Positions 2,722 to 36,774 of a stretch of DNA of 36,774 nt are shown here, in pieces (the stretch's first letter is position 1; each line of letters opens with the position of its first letter). Source of the DNA: Chloroflexota bacterium (GTDB taxonomy: Bacteria > Chloroflexota > Dehalococcoidia > UBA2979); assembly GCA_016875635.1 (NCBI GenBank), contig VGPD01000021.1, positions 1 through 36,774 on the forward strand. The letters are read 5' to 3'. The position numbers and the translations under genes were made by a program. Below the pieces are notes generated by a model. The model saw only the letters and a list, made by a program, of their open reading frames with translations. It was not told the DNA's origin and did not search any database.

Positions 2722-3690
2722 CTAGGCAGATTTCTTGGCGACGGGACGGCCCGGGAGGTCGAGGTCCGCCGGGGGCGGGGCCGGGTTCTGCAGGCCCGCG
2801 AGGAGCTGCGACGGCACGAGCCCACGGAGCTCGTCCACGGTCCACATGCCGCCCTTGGCGATCGTGCGGTCCGGCGTCTCGTCCCACGCCAGCGACACGG
2901 AGCCGCCGGAGACGTAGAAGACCTTGCCGTTGATGTTCCACGCCTGGTCCGACAGCAGGTAACAGACCATCGGGGCCACGTAGTGCGGGGCCATCAACTG
3001 CTGGACGATGGACGCCTCGCGCACGGGAGCCTGCGCGATGCCGGCGCGGGCACGCAGTTCGCGGGCGCTGTCTGGGATGCTCGCCGTCATGCGGGTCGCC
3101 GCGGCCGGCGAGATGCCGTTCGAGGTGACGCCGTAGCGGCCGAGGTCACGGGCGAGACAGCGGATGCCGCCGGCGATGCCGGCCTTCGCCGCACCGTAGT
3201 TGGACTGACCCGCGTTGCCGGCCAGGCCGGAGCCGGACGAGAACGCGATCACGCGGCCGTACCGGTTCTGCCGCATGATGACGGAAGCCGGCTTCGCGAC
3301 GTTGAAATATCCGGTCAGGTGGACAGCGACGACGTCGTCCCACTCTGATTCGGACAGGTTGAAGATCATGCGGTCGCGCAGGATCCCGGCGACGTGGATC
3401 ACGCCGTCCAGCCGCCCGAAGGCGTCCACGGCCTGCTTGATCATGTTCTCGCCGCCGGCCTCGGTGGCCACGGTGTCCGTGTTGACGACGGCCTTGCCGC
3501 CGGCGGCGGTGATCTCCTTGACCACCTCCGCTGCCGGGCCCGTGTCGTGGCCGGAACCGTCCACATTCACGCCAGGGTCATTCACGACCACGGAGCCGCC
3601 CAGGGCGGCGGTCAGCAGGGCGACTTCACGTCCCATGCCTCGACCGGCGCCGGTGACGACGTATGAGCGGCCCTCCAGGGGCTTTGCCAT
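2722..3690 (-). CDS. Short-chain dehydrogenase/reductase, MFE-2-like (paralogue A)
   Basis: This is a 322-residue classical-fold SDR resembling the (3R)-hydroxyacyl-CoA dehydrogenase domain of multifunctional enzyme 2. The cofactor loop is TGAGRGMG. VVVNDPGVNVDG follows beta-2, with an acidic residue favouring NAD. The catalytic Ser and YxxxK lie in FSSGSGLAGNAGQSNYGAAK. A C-terminal segment of about 70 residues follows the Rossmann core (WTVDELRGLV...NPAPPP). It is a close tandem paralogue of the next gene upstream on the minus strand. Compared with that copy, the NVAG element reads HVAG and the APGAAT stretch reads SPAAAT, so substrate or activity may have diverged. The start ATG at 3690 has a GAGAGGAAA SD. 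It is the last gene of the operon. Confidence 0.88.
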   Translation of the reverse strand: MAKPLEGRSYVVTGAGRGMGREVALLTAALGGSVVVNDPGVNVDGSGHDTGPAAEVVKEITAAGGKAVVNTDTVATEAGGENMIKQAVDAFGRLDGVIHVAGILRDRMIFNLSESEWDDVVAVHLTGYFNVAKPASVIMRQNRYGRVIAFSSGSGLAGNAGQSNYGAAKAGIAGGIRCLARDLGRYGVTSNGISPAAATRMTASIPDSARELRARAGIAQAPVREASIVQQLMAPHYVAPMVCYLLSDQAWNINGKVFYVSGGSVSLAWDETPDRTIAKGGMWTVDELRGLVPSQLLAGLQNPAPPPADLDLPGRPVAKKSA

Positions 3691-5881: not shown

Positions 5882-6640
5882 CTAGCGTGCGTGTCGCGCT
5901 GCTACGCGAGCCACGTACTCCGCACGTGCCTCGTCGATCTCGCGCCAGACGGCATGGATGTCGTTCGGGAGGGCCTGATATCGCGGGTCGGTGCCCACGG
6001 AGCCGCCGGTCAGGTCCAGTGGCCAGAACCGGCCGGCACGCAGCTCCTCGATGAGGTCACGCTCGGTCCGCACATCGCGTTCGAAGTAGGTCGCGCATTT
6101 GCCGATATCCGCCGTGGCGTGTGAGTCGGTCCCGGCCGTGCCATGAAAGTGCATCCGGTCCGCGATGCGGGCAGCCATGGCGTTCTCGTTCTGCTTGCCG
6201 CGCCCGTTCAGGACCTCCATAGCGACGATGAGCCCGAAGCCCTCGTTCTCCTCGGCGCGGTCCAGCGCATCCTCCCACTCGTGTGGCTTATCCCATTGCC
6301 ATGGGTGATGGCGGCGGTAGGGGTGGGCGGCGACCATCACGCCGTCGACCTCGTTCACGTGGCCGATGAGTTCATGGGCGCGGTGCATCCCAAAGACATA
6401 TTTGTGCATCCCGTAGACCAGCATGTGGCCGTCTTCGGTGTTGATCTCCATCGCCGGGATCACCGTGAAGTTGTGACGCTTCGCCAGTAGCCGGACTTCC
6501 TCTGGGTCCCAGGCCCAGTCGTGTTCGGACAGCACGATGGCATCGAGACCCGCCTGCTTCGACCGCTCGACGAGTTCGTCGGGACGCAGGTAGGAGTCCC
6601 AGGACCCCGGGTGGGTGTGCGTGTGCAAGTCGATCAGCAT
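5882..6640 (-). CDS. PHP-domain metal-dependent phosphoesterase
   Basis: This is a 252-residue PHP (polymerase and histidinol phosphatase) fold protein, a TIM-barrel-like metallohydrolase. The metal ligands are visible in order: LHTHTH at residues 5-10, SEHDW (His40), AMEIN (Glu65), AAHPYR (His106) and GTDSH (Asp172/His174). The substrate is unknown; relatives act on phosphomonoesters such as nucleoside 3',5'-bisphosphates. It sits alone between the thiolase operon terminator and the MaoC operon promoter, so a role in acyl-CoA metabolism cannot be assumed. The ATG at 6640 has only a weak GGCGGA upstream. Confidence 0.88.
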   Translation of the reverse strand: MLIDLHTHTHPGSWDSYLRPDELVERSKQAGLDAIVLSEHDWAWDPEEVRLLAKRHNFTVIPAMEINTEDGHMLVYGMHKYVFGMHRAHELIGHVNEVDGVMVAAHPYRRHHPWQWDKPHEWEDALDRAEENEGFGLIVAMEVLNGRGKQNENAMAARIADRMHFHGTAGTDSHATADIGKCATYFERDVRTERDLIEELRAGRFWPLDLTGGSVGTDPRYQALPNDIHAVWREIDEARAEYVARVAARHAR

Positions 6641-6686
6641 CGGTCCGCCGTCATGGTTCCAGCATCACACGTACAGGCGGGAACAG

Positions 6687-6719
6687 CGAGGGCGGCCCTG
6701 CGGGTGCGGGCCGCCCTCG
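6687..6719 (-). terminator. GC-rich hairpin downstream of the thiolase gene
   Basis: A perfect 12-bp stem (CGAGGGCGGCCC at 6687-6698 with its complement at 6708-6719) has a 9-nt loop and lies 18 bp after the thiolase stop on the minus strand. The minus-strand continuation (CTGTTCCC) is a poor U-tract; the better T-run (TTTCACTT) is on the plus strand, where no upstream gene needs it. By context it is assigned to the thiolase operon. Confidence 0.6.
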
Positions 6720-6737
6720 TTTCACTTCCGCTCAGGC

Positions 6738-7952
6738 CTAGTCGTCAGCGACCAGGACCAGGTTGGCGGTGACGGACAGGACACCACCGGTGCCGTTGAC
6801 GATCGCGGTCTTGGCGTTCGTCTGCTTGCCCGGGAGACCGTTGACGCCGTCCTCGGCCGTGCCTGACAGCTGCCGGTACGCCTCGATGAGCAGCATCATG
6901 CCGTACTGGCCGGAGTGGCTGAACGACAGCCCGCCGCCGTTGGTGTTGACGGGGATGCCGGATCCGCCCGGGCCGGCCTTGCCGCCCTCCCAGAGGCTGG
7001 GGCCTTCGCCGAGCTTGGTGAGCCCGACGAGCTCAGCGGTGATGCCGGCGGTGATGGTGAAGGAGTCGTAGAGCATCGCGAGTTCCATCTCGCGCGGCCC
7101 CATCCCCGCCATCTTGTACGCGACGTTCGCCGAGCGGCGTGCCGAGGTGGCCGTGAAGTCATCCATCTCCAGCATGTTCTGGTGGCTCATCGTCTCGCCC
7201 GCACCAGCGATCCAGACCGGCTTGGTCCAGAAGGACCGCGCCCGCTCCGCCGAGGCGATCACCACGGCCCCACCGTGGTCGGTCACGAGGCAGACATCGA
7301 GCAGCTTCAGCGGCCACGAGATCAGGCGGCTGTTCATGACGTCGCTGATCCCGATCTTGCCGCCGGCCGGGTTCGTCTCCTTGGAGAACATGATGGCGCG
7401 CGGGTTCAGCGTGGCCCAGTCGCGCGTGGTGACGGCGATCTGGGCGAACTGCTCCTGCGTGGAGCCGTAGCGGTGCATGTGACGCGTGAACGCGTGCGAG
7501 TACTGCGACGGGGCGCCCGTCGTGCCGTACGGATTGACCCACATCACGTCGGCCTGCCACGGGTCGCCGGGGCCCGCGCGGTAGGTGCCCTTGCCCTGGT
7601 TCTTGCGGGCGCCGGACCAGCCGGCCTCGCCATGGGCGACGACGGCGATGTCGATGATGCCCGCGTTGATCGCCATCATCGCGTGGTGGACGTGCATCAC
7701 GAAGGAGCAGCCGCCGACGGAGGTCGTGTCGATCACCTTCGGCTTGATGCCTAGGTACTCGGCGATGCTGTTCGTCGTGTTGGTCGCGTACAGGCCCTCG
7801 ATCTCGGAGGGCTTGATGCCGACCTGGTTGCAAACGTTCGAGATCGCCTGGATCGCGAGCAGCTGCGAGGTCGTGCCTTCTTCGATGTAGCCGATCTTGT
7901 CAGACTCGGCGGCGCCGACGATGGCGGCGGACATGGAGGGATTGCTTGGCAT
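6738..7952 (-). CDS. Thiolase-family protein (SCP-x/Ltp2-like)
   Basis: This is a 404-residue protein of the SCP-x type thiolase group. Recognisable stretches are MSAAIVGAAESDKIGY at the N-terminus, DTTSVGGCSFVMHVHHAMMAI with Cys82 at or next to the nucleophile position, ELAMLYDSFTITAGI, and NTNGGGLSFSHSGQYGM, which corresponds to the usual GGGxxxGHP loop. The second catalytic cysteine of degradative thiolases is missing: the C-terminal segment reads NGTGGVLSVTANLVL. This pattern, together with a DUF35 partner gene 18 bp upstream, fits either a noncanonical thiolase or a retro-aldolase of the Ltp2 type, which cleaves side-chain acyl-CoAs. The exact reaction is inference. The ATG at 7952 has a GAGGAGAGGA SD. 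Confidence 0.85.
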   Translation of the reverse strand: MPSNPSMSAAIVGAAESDKIGYIEEGTTSQLLAIQAISNVCNQVGIKPSEIEGLYATNTTNSIAEYLGIKPKVIDTTSVGGCSFVMHVHHAMMAINAGIIDIAVVAHGEAGWSGARKNQGKGTYRAGPGDPWQADVMWVNPYGTTGAPSQYSHAFTRHMHRYGSTQEQFAQIAVTTRDWATLNPRAIMFSKETNPAGGKIGISDVMNSRLISWPLKLLDVCLVTDHGGAVVIASAERARSFWTKPVWIAGAGETMSHQNMLEMDDFTATSARRSANVAYKMAGMGPREMELAMLYDSFTITAGITAELVGLTKLGEGPSLWEGGKAGPGGSGIPVNTNGGGLSFSHSGQYGMMLLIEAYRQLSGTAEDGVNGLPGKQTNAKTAIVNGTGGVLSVTANLVLVADD

Positions 7953-7970
7953 GGTGTTCCTCTCCTCGCC

Positions 7971-8384
7971 CTAGACCACGCGCCAGTAGGGGACGTGGAC
8001 GTTTTCGTTGGCTTCGTCGAACTCGACCTTGACCTTCTTGCCGACCCATGAGAGGTCGGGCTTGGCGGCGTCGACGCCGCGGAGGACGGTGAACATGCGG
8101 TCACCTTCCTTGAGGTCGATATAGGCGGTGACAAAGGGGGCCTCGTCGGCCCATCCGCCGAAGGCGCGGTGCTGGACGGCGAAGGTGTGGACCCAGCCCT
8201 CACCGGACGCCTCGAACCACTCGATGTCCCGGGAGTGGCAGAAGGGGCAGATTATGCGTGGGTAGAAGTGAGCACGGTTGCAGTCCGTGCAGCGAGGAAG
8301 CATGAGCTTCCCCTGCTTGGCACCGTCCCAGAACGGTTGGGTGCTGTACGGCTCAGGGTCGGGGATGGGTTTGTTGTACGCCAA
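7971..8384 (-). CDS. DUF35 zinc-ribbon/OB-fold protein, thiolase partner
   Basis: This is a 137-residue protein with a rubredoxin-like zinc ribbon (Cys32-x2-Cys35 ... Cys46-x2-Cys49) followed by an OB-fold (GWVHTFAVQHRAF...FVTAYIDLKEG...VKVEFDE). DUF35 proteins are obligate partners of many SCP-x-like thiolases and of the Ltp2 aldolase, where they are thought to hold the acyl-CoA. The gene is 18 bp upstream of the thiolase and cotranscribed. The start is TTG at 8384, supported by a GAGGAG SD at 8 nt and by the lack of any ATG or GTG before the conserved N-terminal helix. Its mRNA leader is about 147 nt and strongly structured. Confidence 0.88.
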   Translation of the reverse strand: MAYNKPIPDPEPYSTQPFWDGAKQGKLMLPRCTDCNRAHFYPRIICPFCHSRDIEWFEASGEGWVHTFAVQHRAFGGWADEAPFVTAYIDLKEGDRMFTVLRGVDAAKPDLSWVGKKVKVEFDEANENVHVPYWRVV

Positions 8385-8531
8385 CGTCCGCTCCTCTTCT
8401 GTCGCTCGGGAGGCAGGGCGCCTCCACCACTCGATGGACAGCGGCGGCCCGCAACGGGCCTCCGTGGAAGCGACGAGGGCGAGGGATGCCGCACTGCCGG
8501 GGCAGTGGAATGGCGCGAGCCCGCCGCGACC
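8385..8531 (-). promoter_or_regulatory. Structured 5' leader of the DUF35-thiolase operon (candidate cis-regulatory RNA)
   Basis: The predicted minus-strand leader holds three perfect inverted repeats: CACTGCC/GGCAGTG (8492-8507), CGGGCC/GGCCCG (8446-8460) and GCCTCC/GGAGGC (8409-8425). In addition, minus-strand GTCGCT near 8470 can pair with AGCGAC near 8405, closing the last two into a junction. Minus-strand GGAGGC occurs twice (8463-8458 and 8425-8420), and both copies can compete for one GCCTCC (8414-8409). That same GCCTCC could also pair with the GAGGAG SD. This is sequence-level pairing only; no known riboswitch class is recognised. No coding gene is seen in the rest of the 8385-8781 intergenic stretch. 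Confidence 0.4.
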
Positions 8532-8537
8532 GCGCGC

Positions 8538-8567
8538 ACTCTAGTCGCGGGATCAGCGGCGGGTCAA
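8538..8567 (-). promoter_or_regulatory. Promoter of the DUF35-thiolase operon
   Basis: On the minus strand, -35 TTGACC (8567-8562), an 18-nt spacer and -10 TAGAGT (8543-8538) lie 154 bp upstream of the TTG start. It matches the TTGACC-18-TAGGTT arrangement found before guaB3. Confidence 0.6.
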
Positions 8568-8588
8568 CACGGGCGTGGACTGGGCCCC

Positions 8589-8600
8589 GGGGACGTCCCC
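8589..8600. repeat. 12-bp perfect palindrome GGGGACGTCCCC
   Basis: This uninterrupted palindrome lies between the divergent thiolase and nuo promoters, 22 bp upstream of the former's -35. Position and symmetry suit a dimeric regulator site. GC-rich palindromes also arise by chance, so the call is tentative. Confidence 0.35.
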
Positions 8601-8613
8601 CGGCCGGTCGCCA

Positions 8614-8639
8614 GATTCCGCCGGCGGGAGTCGGGAATC
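8614..8639. repeat. Inverted repeat GATTCC-N14-GGAATC
   Basis: This 6-bp dyad with a 14-nt spacer ends 11 bp before the -35 of the nuo promoter. It is a possible activator or repressor site; nothing else supports this. Confidence 0.3.
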
Positions 8640-8650
8640 AGGCGCTTTCA

Positions 8651-8679
8651 TTGCACCCCATAGGGGAGGGTGTTACGTT
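8651..8679 (+). promoter_or_regulatory. Promoter of the nuo operon
   Basis: TTGCAC, a 17-nt spacer and TACGTT give a plausible sigma-70 type promoter with a start near 8686. The leader of about 96 nt to the GTG of nuoA contains a CGCGG/CCGCG hairpin (8724-8739) and a GTCAG/CTGAC pair (8693-8697 with 8754-8758). Confidence 0.55.
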
Positions 8680-8781
8680 CCGCGCGGCCGCGGTCAGACT
8701 CCCTGGCGAGCGTGTTGTGCCTCCGCGGGGCTTGCCGCGAGAAGCGCAGAGCACTGACGGACGGTCTCGAAAGGACGCCGC

Positions 8782-9156
8782 GTGATCCCGGAGCAATTCG
8801 GTCGCGTTGCGGTCCTGCTGATCTTCGCACTCGGCTTCCCGATGCTCCCCCTCGCCATCTCCTTCCTCTTCGGACTCCTGAAGATCCGGCCGGCCCATCC
8901 CGACCCCGTGAAGAACGCGACGTACGAGTGCGGCGTCGAGGCCGAGGGTTCCTCCTGGGGGCAGTTCAATGCGCGCTACTACCTCTTCGCGCTCGGCTTC
9001 GTGATCTTCGATGTGGAAGTAATCTTCCTGTACCCGTGGGCGGTGAACCACGCGACGATGCCGCTCTACACCATCCTCAAGGCCGCGTTGTTCATCGGCA
9101 TCCTGCTCTTCGGGCTTGGGTATGCCTGGCGCAAGCGCGCCCTGGAGTGGCGCTGA
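8782..9156 (+). CDS. nuoA: NADH-quinone oxidoreductase subunit A
   Basis: This is a 124-residue small membrane subunit of respiratory complex I with three predicted transmembrane helices. The first covers LLIFALGFPMLPLAISFLF, the others follow YYLFALGFVIFDVEVIFLYPWA and a C-terminal helix. The family hallmarks KNATYECGVEAEGSSWGQFNARYY and FDVEVIFLYPWA are intact. They form part of the loop near the quinone site at the junction with the peripheral arm. The start is GTG at 8782 with an AAGGA SD at 7 nt. The stop overlaps the nuoC start (TGATG), where nuoB would normally intervene. Confidence 0.95.
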   Translation: MIPEQFGRVAVLLIFALGFPMLPLAISFLFGLLKIRPAHPDPVKNATYECGVEAEGSSWGQFNARYYLFALGFVIFDVEVIFLYPWAVNHATMPLYTILKAALFIGILLFGLGYAWRKRALEWR

Positions 9157-9767
9157 TGCCCGCTGGCCCGCATCAGCTGCTCGGACACCGCGTGGCGGAC
9201 GCCCTTGAGGCGGCGCTGCCAGGCGCGGTCATCGGCCGTCACGTCGAGTGGATCGAGGTGCGCTCAGACCGCGTCCGGGATGTCCTCCGCTGGCTCCACG
9301 ACTCTGAGTCCTTCGATGCCGCCCAGCTCTCGAACCTCACCAGCGTCGACCGCCACACGCACTTCGAGGTCGTCTACCACCTTCAGTCGTTGGACCTGAA
9401 TCACCAGATCGTCGTGAAGGCGATCGTCGAGGACCACGAGAATCCGCTGCTGCCGAGCGTGTACCCCGTGTACAAGGGTGCGTTGCTTCAGGAACGCGAG
9501 GTCTACGACCTCATGGGGATCCGGTTCGACGGCCACCCTGACCTCCGGCGCCTCTTCCTCTGGGAGGGCTACCCGGCGTTCCCGCTGCGGAAGGACTTCC
9601 TCAGCCTCGGCCAGATCACGGGCAAGGCGGTCAACCCGGGGTTGCAGCGGTTCCCCTTCGAGGACAAAGAGTCGCCGGACCGGATGCTGAACGCCGGCAA
9701 CATCGTCACGGGCGAGCGCGAGGCCAGCGCCGGCAACGCAGGCGGCAGCGCCGGGGCGGGGCACTAA
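9156..9767 (+). CDS. nuoC: NADH-quinone oxidoreductase subunit C (30-kDa type)
   Basis: This is a 203-residue peripheral-arm subunit without cofactors. It has the N-terminal Complex1_30kDa domain (DVLRWLHDSESFDAAQLSNLTSVD) and the signature REVYDLMGIRFDGHPDLRRLFLWEGYPAFPLRKDF. The separate-gene form (not a NuoCD fusion) is usual outside gamma-proteobacteria. The C-terminal 20 residues are rich in Gly, Ala and Ser. The start ATG at 9156 overlaps the nuoA stop by one base. The stop is one base before the nuoD GTG. NuoC normally contacts NuoD, NuoB and NuoI; the last two are not encoded here. Confidence 0.95.
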   Translation: MPAGPHQLLGHRVADALEAALPGAVIGRHVEWIEVRSDRVRDVLRWLHDSESFDAAQLSNLTSVDRHTHFEVVYHLQSLDLNHQIVVKAIVEDHENPLLPSVYPVYKGALLQEREVYDLMGIRFDGHPDLRRLFLWEGYPAFPLRKDFLSLGQITGKAVNPGLQRFPFEDKESPDRMLNAGNIVTGEREASAGNAGGSAGAGH

Positions 9768-9768
9768 C

Positions 9769-10872
9769 GTGAACTCCACCGCCGAACCGTACGTCCTCAA
9801 CATCGGGCCGCAGCACCCATCGACTCACGGGGTCTTCCGCGTGCGGGTCGTGATGGATGGCGAGGTCATCCGTGACCTCGACATGATCGTGGGGTACCTC
9901 CACCGTTCGATGGAGAAGCTCGCCGAGGAGCGCACCTACACGCAGAACATCCCGTTCACCGACCGTGCCGACTACCTCGCGGCGATGTCCGGGAACCTCG
10001 GTCTGGCGCTCGGCATCGAGCGTCTTGCCGGTATCGACGTGCCGGAGCGGGCCTCCTACCTGCGCGTGATCTTCGCGGAGTTGCAGCGCGTCGCCAGCCA
10101 CGCGATGGCGAACGGGACCCTCGTCTCAGACGCCGGCGCCTGGCAGACGCCGCTGCTCTACATGTTCCGTGAGCGCGAGAAGATCCTCGACCTCTTCGAG
10201 ATGACCTGTGGCGCGCGGCTGACGACGAACTACATGCGTGCGGGCGGCGTCTCCTTCGAGCCCCCCGCTGAGTTCTGGCCGGCGCTGAACGAGCTGGTCG
10301 CCGAACTGCCGGGCCGGATTGACGAGTACATGGAGTTGCTCGCCGACAACGAGATCTTCCTGGCGCGGACGCGCGGCATCGGCATCATCACCCCCGAGGA
10401 CGCGATCAACGGGTCGCTGGTCGGCCCGGCGCTACGCGGTTCAGGCGTCCCGTGGGACCTGCGCAAGGCGGAGCCATACTGCGTGTACGACCGGTTCGAC
10501 TTCGATGTGCCGGTGGGCACCCGAGGCGATGTCTATGACCGCTTCATGTGCCGCATGATGGAGACGCGCGAGTCAGTGCGCATCCTGAAGCAGGCGATCG
10601 CGCAGATCCCACCCGGCCCGCACAAGAACGACGTCCCGCTGGCGCTCCGTCCGCCCGTCGGGGAGGTCTACAGCCGCGTCGAGGGCCCGCGTGGCGAGAA
10701 CGGCTTCTACCTCGTATCCGACGGAGGCCCGGCGCCCTATCGGTTCCACCTCCGTGCCCCGTCACTGATCAATCTGTCGCTCCTCCGCGAACTGGCGCGT
10801 GGCGCTTCGTTGCCGGACGCAGTCGTCACCCTCGGCTCGATCGACATCGTCGTGGGGGAGATCGACCGATGA
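9769..10872 (+). CDS. nuoD: NADH-quinone oxidoreductase subunit D (49-kDa type)
   Basis: This is a 367-residue subunit related to NiFe-hydrogenase large subunits that lines the quinone-binding cavity. The quinone-site loop NIGPQHPSTHG is near the N-terminus with the conserved His. GYLHRSMEKLAEERTYTQNIPFTDRADY follows, and the C-terminus ends in the expected SIDIVVGEIDR. No hydrogenase-type CxxC metal ligands are present, as expected for complex I. It starts at GTG 9769 and overlaps nuoH by 4 nt (ATGA). In the enzyme it must dock on NuoB, which carries cluster N2 and is not encoded in this operon. Confidence 0.95.
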   Translation: MNSTAEPYVLNIGPQHPSTHGVFRVRVVMDGEVIRDLDMIVGYLHRSMEKLAEERTYTQNIPFTDRADYLAAMSGNLGLALGIERLAGIDVPERASYLRVIFAELQRVASHAMANGTLVSDAGAWQTPLLYMFREREKILDLFEMTCGARLTTNYMRAGGVSFEPPAEFWPALNELVAELPGRIDEYMELLADNEIFLARTRGIGIITPEDAINGSLVGPALRGSGVPWDLRKAEPYCVYDRFDFDVPVGTRGDVYDRFMCRMMETRESVRILKQAIAQIPPGPHKNDVPLALRPPVGEVYSRVEGPRGENGFYLVSDGGPAPYRFHLRAPSLINLSLLRELARGASLPDAVVTLGSIDIVVGEIDR

Positions 10873-33528: not shown

Positions 33529-33552
33529 TCCCTTTGGCGTGCCGTTTCCCAC

Positions 33553-33581
33553 TTGGAGGTCACCGTATACGCCCGAATACT
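33553..33581 (+). promoter_or_regulatory. Candidate promoter of the comM-like gene
   Basis: TTGGAG, a 17-nt spacer and AATACT would start transcription near 33588, about 59 nt before the ATG at 33647. Each box matches consensus at only 3-4 positions. Confidence 0.3.
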
Positions 33582-33646
33582 CGGGGTGCCCCGGCGAGAC
33601 ATTGGAGGCCACTCGTGCCCCCCTCAAGATGTGCAGCAGGACTCCG

Positions 33647-35167
33647 ATGACCCTCGCCATGATGCGCAGCGGCGCCCTGCGGGGCATCGAAGGCATCCCG
33701 GTGGATGTCGAGGCGGACATCGGTTCCGGCCTGCCGGCGGTCAACATCGTTGGATTGCCGGACGCCTCGGTCCAGGAGGCTCGCGAACGGGTGCGTGCCG
33801 CGATCCGCAATACGGGGTTCGAGTTCCCTCTCCGCCGGATCACCGTGAACCTCGCTCCCGCGGACGTGCGCAAGGAGGGGCCACTCTACGACCTCGCAAT
33901 CGCTGTCGCCGTGCTGGTGGCCAGCGGCCAGGTCGCCGACCGCTTCTCGGACACGGCACTGTTCGGCGAACTCTCGCTCGACGGCCGCCTCCGCCACATC
34001 CCCGGCGTCCTCCCATTCGTCGCGATGTGTGCAGCGCAGGGCATCGGCAGCGTGGTCGTGCCGGTCGAGGACGTGGCGGAGGAGAGGTCCGTGGGTGGCG
34101 TCCGTGTCCACGGGCTCGACAGCCTTCGCCAGGTGGGTGAGCCGTTCGAGTCCTGGCCGGAGGCGACGCAGATTCAGGTCGCTGAGGCGGACGGAGCGCC
34201 CCGGGAAGCGCACGACCTCGCGACGGTGCAGGGGCAGGAGCATGTGAAGCGCGCGCTGGAGGTGGCGGCGGCGGGCGGCCACAATCTGCTCATGCAGGGC
34301 CCGCCGGGCCCCGGCAAGACCCTCCTGGCGCGGGCGCTCCCCGGTCTCCTGGCCCCGCTCACTCCCGCCGAATCGATCGAGGTGGCGAAGGTCTACTCGG
34401 TCGCCGGGCTGCTCAACCGGGAGCGCCCGCTCATGCGCGAGCGGCCGTTTCGCGCACCGCACCACACGATCTCGCACGCCGGGCTCGTGGGCGGCGGCTC
34501 GCACATCCGGCCGGGCGAGGTCTCCCTCGCACATCGCGGCGTGCTCTTCCTCGACGAGTTCCCCGAATTTGGCGCGACCGCCCTCGAGGCGTTGCGCGAG
34601 CCTCTGGAATCCGGAGCACTCACCATTTCGCGGGCGCGGGGCTCGGTGACGTTCCCGGCGCGGGTGTTGCTGGTGGCGGCAATGAACCCGTGTCCCTGCG
34701 GGTATTACGGCGACCCGGTACGTGCCTGTACCTGCCCGGAGGCCACCGTCACCCGCTATCAGCGCCGCGTCTCCGGCCCGCTCCTCGACCGCATTGACCT
34801 CTTCATTGACGTCCCCCGGGTCGAGTTCAAAGAGCTGACGGGCGAGGCCACCGGAGAGCGGTCGGAGGCCGTCCGTGCCCGGGTCGTCGAGGCGCGCGAG
34901 CGGCAGGCGGCACGCTTTTACGGCACCTCGACCGTCGCAAACGCGGAGATGGGGCCGCTCGACGTGCGGAAGCACTGCCAGCAGCAACTGGAGGCCGCCG
35001 CGCAGCCGCTCCTGGCTGCCGCGATGCAGCAACTCGGCCTCTCCGCTCGCTCCTTCCACCGCGTCCTGAAGGTCGCCCGCACGATCGCCGACCTCGCCGG
35101 CAGCGAGCGGATCCTCACGCCCCACCTCGCCGAGGCGGTGCAGTACCGCCGTCGCGGCGCGGAATAG
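33647..35167 (+). CDS. comM: YifB/ComM family Mg-chelatase-like AAA+ ATPase
   Basis: This is a 506-residue AAA+ protein related to ComM, a helicase that promotes branch migration during natural transformation. The N-terminal ChlI-type domain reads IEGIPVDVEADIGSGLPAVNIVGLPDASVQEARERVRAAI and ITVNLAPADVRKEGPLYDLAIA. The AAA+ core has Walker A GPPGPGKT (about residue 218), FRAPHHTISHAGLVGGG and Walker B VLFLDEFPEF. A four-cysteine NPCPCGYYGDP...CTCPE insert and an arginine-containing LLDRIDLFIDVPRV follow. I chose the ATG at 33647 by family alignment (TLAMMRSGALRGIEG). Upstream in-frame starts add nonconserved sequence. A role in transformation is known for some members only. Confidence 0.92.
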   Translation: MTLAMMRSGALRGIEGIPVDVEADIGSGLPAVNIVGLPDASVQEARERVRAAIRNTGFEFPLRRITVNLAPADVRKEGPLYDLAIAVAVLVASGQVADRFSDTALFGELSLDGRLRHIPGVLPFVAMCAAQGIGSVVVPVEDVAEERSVGGVRVHGLDSLRQVGEPFESWPEATQIQVAEADGAPREAHDLATVQGQEHVKRALEVAAAGGHNLLMQGPPGPGKTLLARALPGLLAPLTPAESIEVAKVYSVAGLLNRERPLMRERPFRAPHHTISHAGLVGGGSHIRPGEVSLAHRGVLFLDEFPEFGATALEALREPLESGALTISRARGSVTFPARVLLVAAMNPCPCGYYGDPVRACTCPEATVTRYQRRVSGPLLDRIDLFIDVPRVEFKELTGEATGERSEAVRARVVEARERQAARFYGTSTVANAEMGPLDVRKHCQQQLEAAAQPLLAAAMQQLGLSARSFHRVLKVARTIADLAGSERILTPHLAEAVQYRRRGAE

Positions 35168-35522: not shown

Positions 35523-36323
35523 ATGACTTTCTCCATTGAAATTCCAACCCTTCCGGTGGCCCGGGTGCGGGCGCTGGCGCTCGTCGCCAACGTCAATCCC
35601 TCGTACGACGATCTGGTCGGCGTGATCGACGCCGACCCCGCGCTGACCATCGCGCTGCTGCGTGCGGCGAATTCCGCCGCGTCCGCTCCGGTCGATCGTG
35701 TGAAGACGGCCCACGTCGCGATGGTCCGTGTGGGCATGAAGGAAGCACGCCGGATCATCATGGGCGTGGCGCTGTCGAATTAATTCCAGAGCCTGCATCG
35801 TTCCGGGATCGATGAGGATGAAATCTGGCGACACCTCATCGCCACCGCCGTGCTTGCCGACGCGACCGCCTGGGGTGAAGTCCGGCACTCCGAGGCCTTC
35901 ACCGCTGGTCTGCTTCACGATGTCGGTCGCCTTGCGTTGGCGACGGCAGAACCGGAGCGGTATGCCAAAGTGGTCAGCGTTGCGCAGCGCGGGGTGCCGA
36001 CCAGCGAGGCGGAACGGGCTGTCTTCGGGATGGACCACGTTGAGTGGGGTGCCTCGCTCGCCCGTCTCTGGGGATTCCCCGATGAGATTGTGGCGGCCAT
36101 CACGGATCACCACGTCGCCTCGCAGCAGGGAATCTCGTGGGTGGTCACTCGCGCTCGCGAGATGGCGGCGGGCCTCGGCATCGGCGACGGGGTAGTCGCC
36201 CCGATGCCGCTCGACCCCGGAAGCGAGGCGGCGATGATGCCCGTCATCGAGGACCTCGGCGGCGAGGAGTCCGTCCTCCAGCGGGTGGCGCGGTACCAGG
36301 GGGCGATGGCCACCGCCGCGTAG
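35523..36323 (+). pseudogene. HDOD-domain protein gene interrupted by an in-frame TAA
   Basis: The frame starts at ATG 35523 with a GAGGGG purine run and encodes an HDOD domain: IPTLPVARVRALALVAN, DPALTIALLRAANSA and IGVALSN-like text. It stops at TAA 35781-35783 (codon 87). The same frame continues without shift as FQSLHRSGIDEDEIWRHLIATAVLADATAW, then TAGLLHDVGRLALA with the HD pair, then HVEWGASLARLWGFPDEIVAAITDHH. It ends at TAG 36321-36323. Together these give about 266 codons, a normal single-domain HDOD size. HDOD proteins are signalling scaffolds related to HD phosphohydrolases. The gene is either broken by one nonsense change, read through at the stop, or affected by a sequencing error. 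A GTG at 35850 could restart but has no SD. Confidence 0.85.
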
Positions 36324-36342
36324 ACGGTGATCGAGGGCCGGG

Positions 36343-36348
36343 TACTAT
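36343..36348 (+). promoter_or_regulatory. -10 box (TACTAT) of probable leaderless promoter
   Basis: TACTAT ends 6 nt before the ATG at 36355 with no SD. TAGACG (36321-36326), 16 nt upstream, is a possible -35. Confidence 0.45.
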
Positions 36349-36354
36349 TCTCCC

Positions 36355-36774
36355 ATGGCCTTCCTTCCGTTCCGCATCGAATTCTCTGACCGGGCGATCG
36401 ACGACCTTCACCGGCGGCTCGATGACACACGGTGGCCGGACACCGGGTGGGACACGGGCTGGGTGACCGGCACGAAGGACAGCGTCCTGCGCGACCTCGT
36501 GCGGTACTGGCGGAACGACTTCGACTGGTCGAAGCAGCAGGCGGCGCTGAATCGGCGCGCCCATGTCCGAGGCGTCATCGATGGCGACGAAATGCACGCC
36601 ATGCTGATGGCGGGGCCGGGCTCCGAGCGGCGCACGCCCGTGCTGTTGATCCACGGCTGGCCCGGCTCCTTCGTGGAGTTCATCGAGGCGGGCGAGCGGC
36701 TGTCGGAGGGTGTCGACGGTGCGCCGGGGCTGGACGTGGTCGTGCCGTCGCTGCCGGGGTTCGGGTTCTCCGAT
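36355..36774 (+). CDS. Epoxide hydrolase, N-terminal part
   Basis: The first 140 codons of an alpha/beta-hydrolase-fold epoxide hydrolase are present; the gene runs off the window. The N-terminal EHN (lid) domain is recognised by FRIEFSDRAIDDLHRRLDDTRWPD, LRDLVRYWRNDFDW and AALNRRAHVRGVIDGDEMHAM. The core then begins with PVLLIHGWPGSFVEF, which holds the HGWP oxyanion-hole motif, and ends at VPSLPGFGFSD. The nucleophile Asp and the rest of the triad lie downstream. The product resembles microsomal-type and juvenile-hormone-type hydrolases, which open epoxides to diols. The substrate is unknown. It has a leaderless-type start. Confidence 0.92.
   Translation, partial: MAFLPFRIEFSDRAIDDLHRRLDDTRWPDTGWDTGWVTGTKDSVLRDLVRYWRNDFDWSKQQAALNRRAHVRGVIDGDEMHAMLMAGPGSERRTPVLLIHGWPGSFVEFIEAGERLSEGVDGAPGLDVVVPSLPGFGFSD

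Follow-up and report, generated by a model that had tools for sequence, protein, structure and literature searches.

HDOD gene and its neighbours

The window (the whole stretch of 36,774 nucleotides analysed) carries close to its end a forward-strand frame of the HDOD family (35523-36323), which translates into 86 residues, a TAA codon, a further 179 residues and a terminal TAG. The features of the locus are as follows:

33539-35167, forward strand: Mg-chelatase-like gene, upstream neighbour and synteny anchor (Pfam Mg_chelatase, 308 bits)
35523-35780, forward strand: N-terminal part of the HDOD gene, 86 codons, with the Shine-Dalgarno (SD)-like sequence GAGGGG a short way upstream of its ATG
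35781-35783, forward strand: in-frame TAA at codon 87, next base T
35784-36320, forward strand: downstream part of the HDOD gene, 179 codons, HD region intact (translation, Pfam, TIGR00277)
36321-36323, forward strand: normal TAG stop of the HDOD gene (from the translation)
36355-36774, forward strand: epoxide hydrolase-like gene (EHN), downstream neighbour, cut by the window end; 81% DNA identity to positions 3254-3533 of the same-genus locus L006

The part before the TAA matches positions 1-79 of the Pfam HDOD profile (PF08668) with 52.9 bits, the part after it matches positions 86-194 with 85.8 bits, and the frame with an X in place of the stop matches positions 1-194 of 196 with 153.4 bits, all three scores exceeding the curated cut-off of 22.9. 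Because the two parts cover adjacent stretches of a single profile, they make up a single domain rather than two frames open by chance. The original prediction had proposed this arrangement, two halves of one HDOD domain in the same frame split only by the TAA, with the HD motif and the codon pattern kept downstream. Translation and Pfam agree with the first point; the HD/HDIG region after the TAA is preserved (39.7 bits to TIGR00277, whose cut-off is 27.6); and GC3 hardly changes across the TAA, from 0.80 to 0.81. Mean codon scores are 0.30 before the stop and 0.20 after it, the corresponding values in the same-genus orthologue L006 being 0.20 and 0.09. The gene shares a nearly full profile and the HD region with single-domain HDOD proteins (PF08668; solved chains 3p3q/3ljx [MmoQ], 3m1t and 3hc1), from which it differs by the one in-frame TAA. 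The role of HDOD is put, in an excerpt of PMC6543031, as signalling without phosphodiesterase activity, possibly with binding of c-di-GMP.

Gene order was compared with that of L006, which belongs to the same-genus genome G004 and contains, in the same order, the end of the upstream gene, an uninterrupted HDOD gene with 71% DNA identity, and the epoxide hydrolase gene. The last 165 bases of the upstream Mg-chelatase-like gene, which we take to be of the YifB/ComM type, match the sequence upstream of the L006 HDOD gene at 81%. This common order identifies the window gene as a positional orthologue. The locus is thus an ordinary stand-alone HDOD gene, orthologous by position to an intact gene of the same genus. 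The gap that separates the HDOD gene from the epoxide hydrolase gene measures about 1.2 kb in G004 (L006 2041-3253) and 31 bases in the window (36324-36354), a difference that is, judging from the two sequences, an insertion or deletion between these relatives.

The source genome (G000; 85 contigs totalling 2.09 Mb, completeness 90%, contamination 1%) encodes two further HDOD genes, both uninterrupted, which brings the number found to three. Among 253 long frames in 437 kb of this genome, chosen by a codon filter only, TAG is the stop in 154, TGA in 69 and TAA in 30 (12%). Such a preference for TAG seems unusual at 68% GC.

The stop column and selective constraint

HDOD matches were present in 31 of the 99 genomes searched, the source genome included. 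We read the stop column in nine close orthologues (L005, L006, L007, L008, L010, L011, L012, L028 and L040, the last being the same gene as L009), more distant matches being outside this count. All nine, including the same-genus positional orthologue, have a serine at this column, encoded by TCG or TCC in the eight whose codon was read, and none of the nine shows a stop or a split at the TAA site. The paralogue L034 has an alanine there. A scan of genome contigs for the HDOD gene returned one orthologue (CANJBO010000009.1) and one distant match.

Broken HDOD homologues do occur in the family, each interrupted elsewhere: L038 has a TAG in mid-domain, L037 a TAG and a frame break, and L028 a frame break at a later position. 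These could represent genuine, occasional loss of HDOD genes in relatives. The 99-genome search also flagged a TGA in a match on G010:C4. A paralogue (G032:C32) at first seemed to share the stop position, but the TAG flagged in it is the normal end of that gene and was rejected.

Constraint on the two parts of the gene was estimated from nonsynonymous divergence, dS values (0.7-3.1) being too high for use, and L028 was left out on account of its later frame break. Between the window gene and eight orthologues, dN is 0.22-0.31 after the TAA and 0.15-0.36 before it; the ranges for seven pairs of intact orthologues are 0.16-0.33 and 0.13-0.29, respectively. At columns invariant in the other sequences, the window gene deviates at 3 of 62 positions after the TAA and 2 of 31 before it, and intact relatives show 0-6 and 0-3 such deviations. 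Both dN and invariant columns are therefore as in intact orthologues and relaxed constraint after the TAA was not seen, a result with which a very young pseudogene is still compatible. Because the downstream part evolves as it does in intact relatives, the stop would be either very young or absent from the living genome.

Other interrupted genes in the source genome

By combining family searches and homology scans, we accepted eight interrupted genes in G000, the HDOD gene included, with ten stops, five of which are TAA. The other seven genes are:

C15:9799: TAA in an ECF sigma factor gene, aligned with Glu; the Pfam match runs across the stop
C15:6706 (TAG) and C15:6982 (TGA): two stops in an HtpX gene; HEMGH motif intact, and the Pfam match runs across
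C2:53513: TAA in a ParA/CbiA-type ATPase gene (named by the domains that cross the stop), aligned with Glu; the Pfam match runs across
C3:26993: TAA in an SDR gene (gene region C3:26252-27025, L070), ten codons before its TAG and adjoining the TVDGG tail; aligned residues I, F, L, V or Y, and the Pfam match runs across
C5:32427: TAA in an MFS transporter gene; the Pfam match runs across the stop
C2:44722: TAG in the gene of a conserved protein that has no Pfam match, aligned with Gln
C2:68531 and C2:68549: TGA and TAG in one gene

Three of these stops fall in a 3.1-kb stretch of C15, where the region 6427-10095 (L064) forms a local lesion cluster made of the two HtpX stops and, 2.8 kb on, the TAA of the ECF sigma factor gene. 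Internal stops were found in 1 of 30 SDR matches of G000, and in none of its 37 ABC transporter matches or 4 AMP-binding matches. Five of its 55 MFS matches were flagged, one for the internal stop listed above and three for gene ends, a TGA on C65 falling outside this sorting; the three stops concerned (C14:34247, C5:9990 and C28:1990) were rejected as internal because they are normal gene ends. Not every approach was informative: the first homology scans were full of antisense shadow frames, and a codon-score scan for interrupted frames could not separate neighbouring from interrupted genes.

We then have a comparison in which one filter was applied to G000 (366 kb aligned) and to the same-genus genome G001 (350 kb). 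It returned nine stop sites and nine frameshift-like rows in G000 against seven and one in G001, counts that are rough, as the filter lost the SDR stop, the second HtpX stop and a TAA in G001 and left the HDOD and MFS genes unreported. The nine frameshift-like rows of G000 include one place and one gene that each occur twice, and some of the alignments are weak (28-32% identity). When judged by eye, six of the nine stop sites in G000 and none of the seven in G001 lay inside a protein, the remaining sites being judged to precede a start, follow an end or belong to a shadow frame. Rough as it is, the comparison points to a higher load of apparent lesions in G000 than in G001.

The G001 TAA (C1:160113, position 113 of L100) lies inside a well-conserved frame and is aligned with Tyr; the G000 copy of this gene looks frameshifted (at about 3838 in L090). 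As G-to-T or C-to-A changes could account for several of the sites, a hypermutator state caused by loss of MutY was considered. It received no support, since G000 has a MutY-type match, at 183.8 bits; this falls short of the family cut-off, 286.5 bits, a threshold reached by 7 of 14 controls.

Origin of the in-frame TAA

The original prediction had offered three causes for the stop: a very recent nonsense change, a base-call error and programmed readthrough. With other internal stops and frameshift-like breaks present in G000, the first two stand as the likely ones, and readthrough is disfavoured.

We favour an assembly or consensus error, to which we give about an even chance. On this reading the TAA would reflect an incorrect base in a draft consensus with several errors of this kind, and in the living population the gene would run unbroken and encode the usual HDOD signalling protein. 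Similar lesions in unrelated conserved genes, among them the protease gene HtpX with its two stops and the three stops clustered on C15, together with more frame breaks than in the relative, suggest a shared technical cause, and we infer a technical origin for the lesions of G000. An excerpt of Cooley and Wright (2024; PMC11017572) gives low coverage or poor reads as a frequent origin of internal stops in assemblies. The spurious pseudogenes presented in it resemble the G000 case in that isolated internal stops occur in otherwise intact conserved genes, several per draft assembly; the difference is that a technical origin is here proposed from the consensus sequence. A natural load of pseudogenes could also account for the eight interrupted genes, and the ABC transporter and AMP-binding families show no stop at all. 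Against an error stands the codon itself: a serine codon can become TAA in one step only from TCA, which makes up 5.8% of the serine codons of G000. As the eight orthologues whose codon was read use TCG or TCC, two changes would be required from these, and a double error within a single codon would be unusual.

A real and very young nonsense mutation is a serious competitor, to which we assign somewhat less than an even chance. It would leave an 86-residue fragment without the HD region and a null gene, and the downstream part would not be made, the nearest usual in-frame start after the TAA having no ribosome-binding site. In agreement with such an event, the lesion is a single clean one of substitution type and the rest of the gene is intact, just as young nonsense pseudogenes have one stop and no further decay. 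The first in-frame ATG, GTG or TTG after the TAA is the GTG at 35850, which is not preceded by an SD-like sequence, and the fragment covers only profile positions 1-79 of 196, the solved HDOD chains 3p3q and 3ljx aligning across the break (sequence alignment only). Loss of the gene may, moreover, be tolerated, as G000 has two other HDOD genes. On the other hand, the mutation must be young enough to have left zero trace of relaxed constraint, and the stops in unrelated conserved genes, with more frameshift-like rows than in G001, speak for a shared technical cause.

Programmed or suppressor-driven readthrough of the TAA, giving two forms of the HDOD protein, appears very improbable. As in bacterial programmed readthrough, the frame stays open past the stop, and constraint is kept there. 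TAA also accounts for 5 of the 10 accepted internal stops against 12% (30/253) of long-frame ends, codon usage predicting that it should make up 12-29% of one-step nonsense changes; this excess is weak, as the numbers are small and the five include the very case from which the search began, for which the tail probabilities (5/7, 5/8) are uncorrected. However, TAA followed by T is a strong stop, UAA then U being suggested, in an excerpt of PMC5289835, as the most efficient termination signal in bacteria. The site has a serine in the nine orthologues read, so that the stop is not conserved among them (more distant matches lie outside the comparison), and the 80 bases after the TAA fold no better than shuffled sequences (z = -0.18), which gives no sign of a stimulating RNA structure. 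None of the 43 tRNA gene places typed in G000 has a stop-codon anticodon, although a suppressor tRNA may have been missed, as tRNA-Ile is absent from the typed set and the genome is about 90% complete. These features set the HDOD gene apart from known bacterial programmed readthrough.

A reassignment of TAA was rejected on three counts: the residues aligned with the TAAs differ (Ser in the HDOD protein, Glu in the sigma factor and Glu in the ATPase), so that no single reassignment fits; no stop anticodon was found among the typed tRNAs; and release-factor genes are present, with two strong and one weaker match to the RF-1 domain (RF1 and RF2 unsorted), one full release factor being encoded in the window. 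That the lineage tolerates TAA within genes through some ochre-reading mechanism, for which the five TAAs among ten stops and the TAA at position 113 of L100 might be cited, seems extremely improbable.

Equally hard to credit is a split protein, in which both HDOD parts would be made separately and assemble, the downstream part arising by re-initiation: constraint is indeed kept in both parts, but the first 80 codons after the TAA contain no in-frame ATG, a start at the GTG at 35850, itself without an SD-like sequence, would already lose 22 residues, the break falls inside a single HDOD domain, and none of the nine orthologues read has a split here. What remains of the probability goes to something outside the readings considered here.

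The HDOD stop thus most probably reflects either an assembly error or a mutation of very recent date, rather than a new reading of the code. The case counsels caution: where one gene of a draft environmental genome shows a clean in-frame stop, the load of internal stops in that assembly should be weighed before any appeal to readthrough or recoding. Should the stop be real, the strain would have lost one of its three identified HDOD genes.
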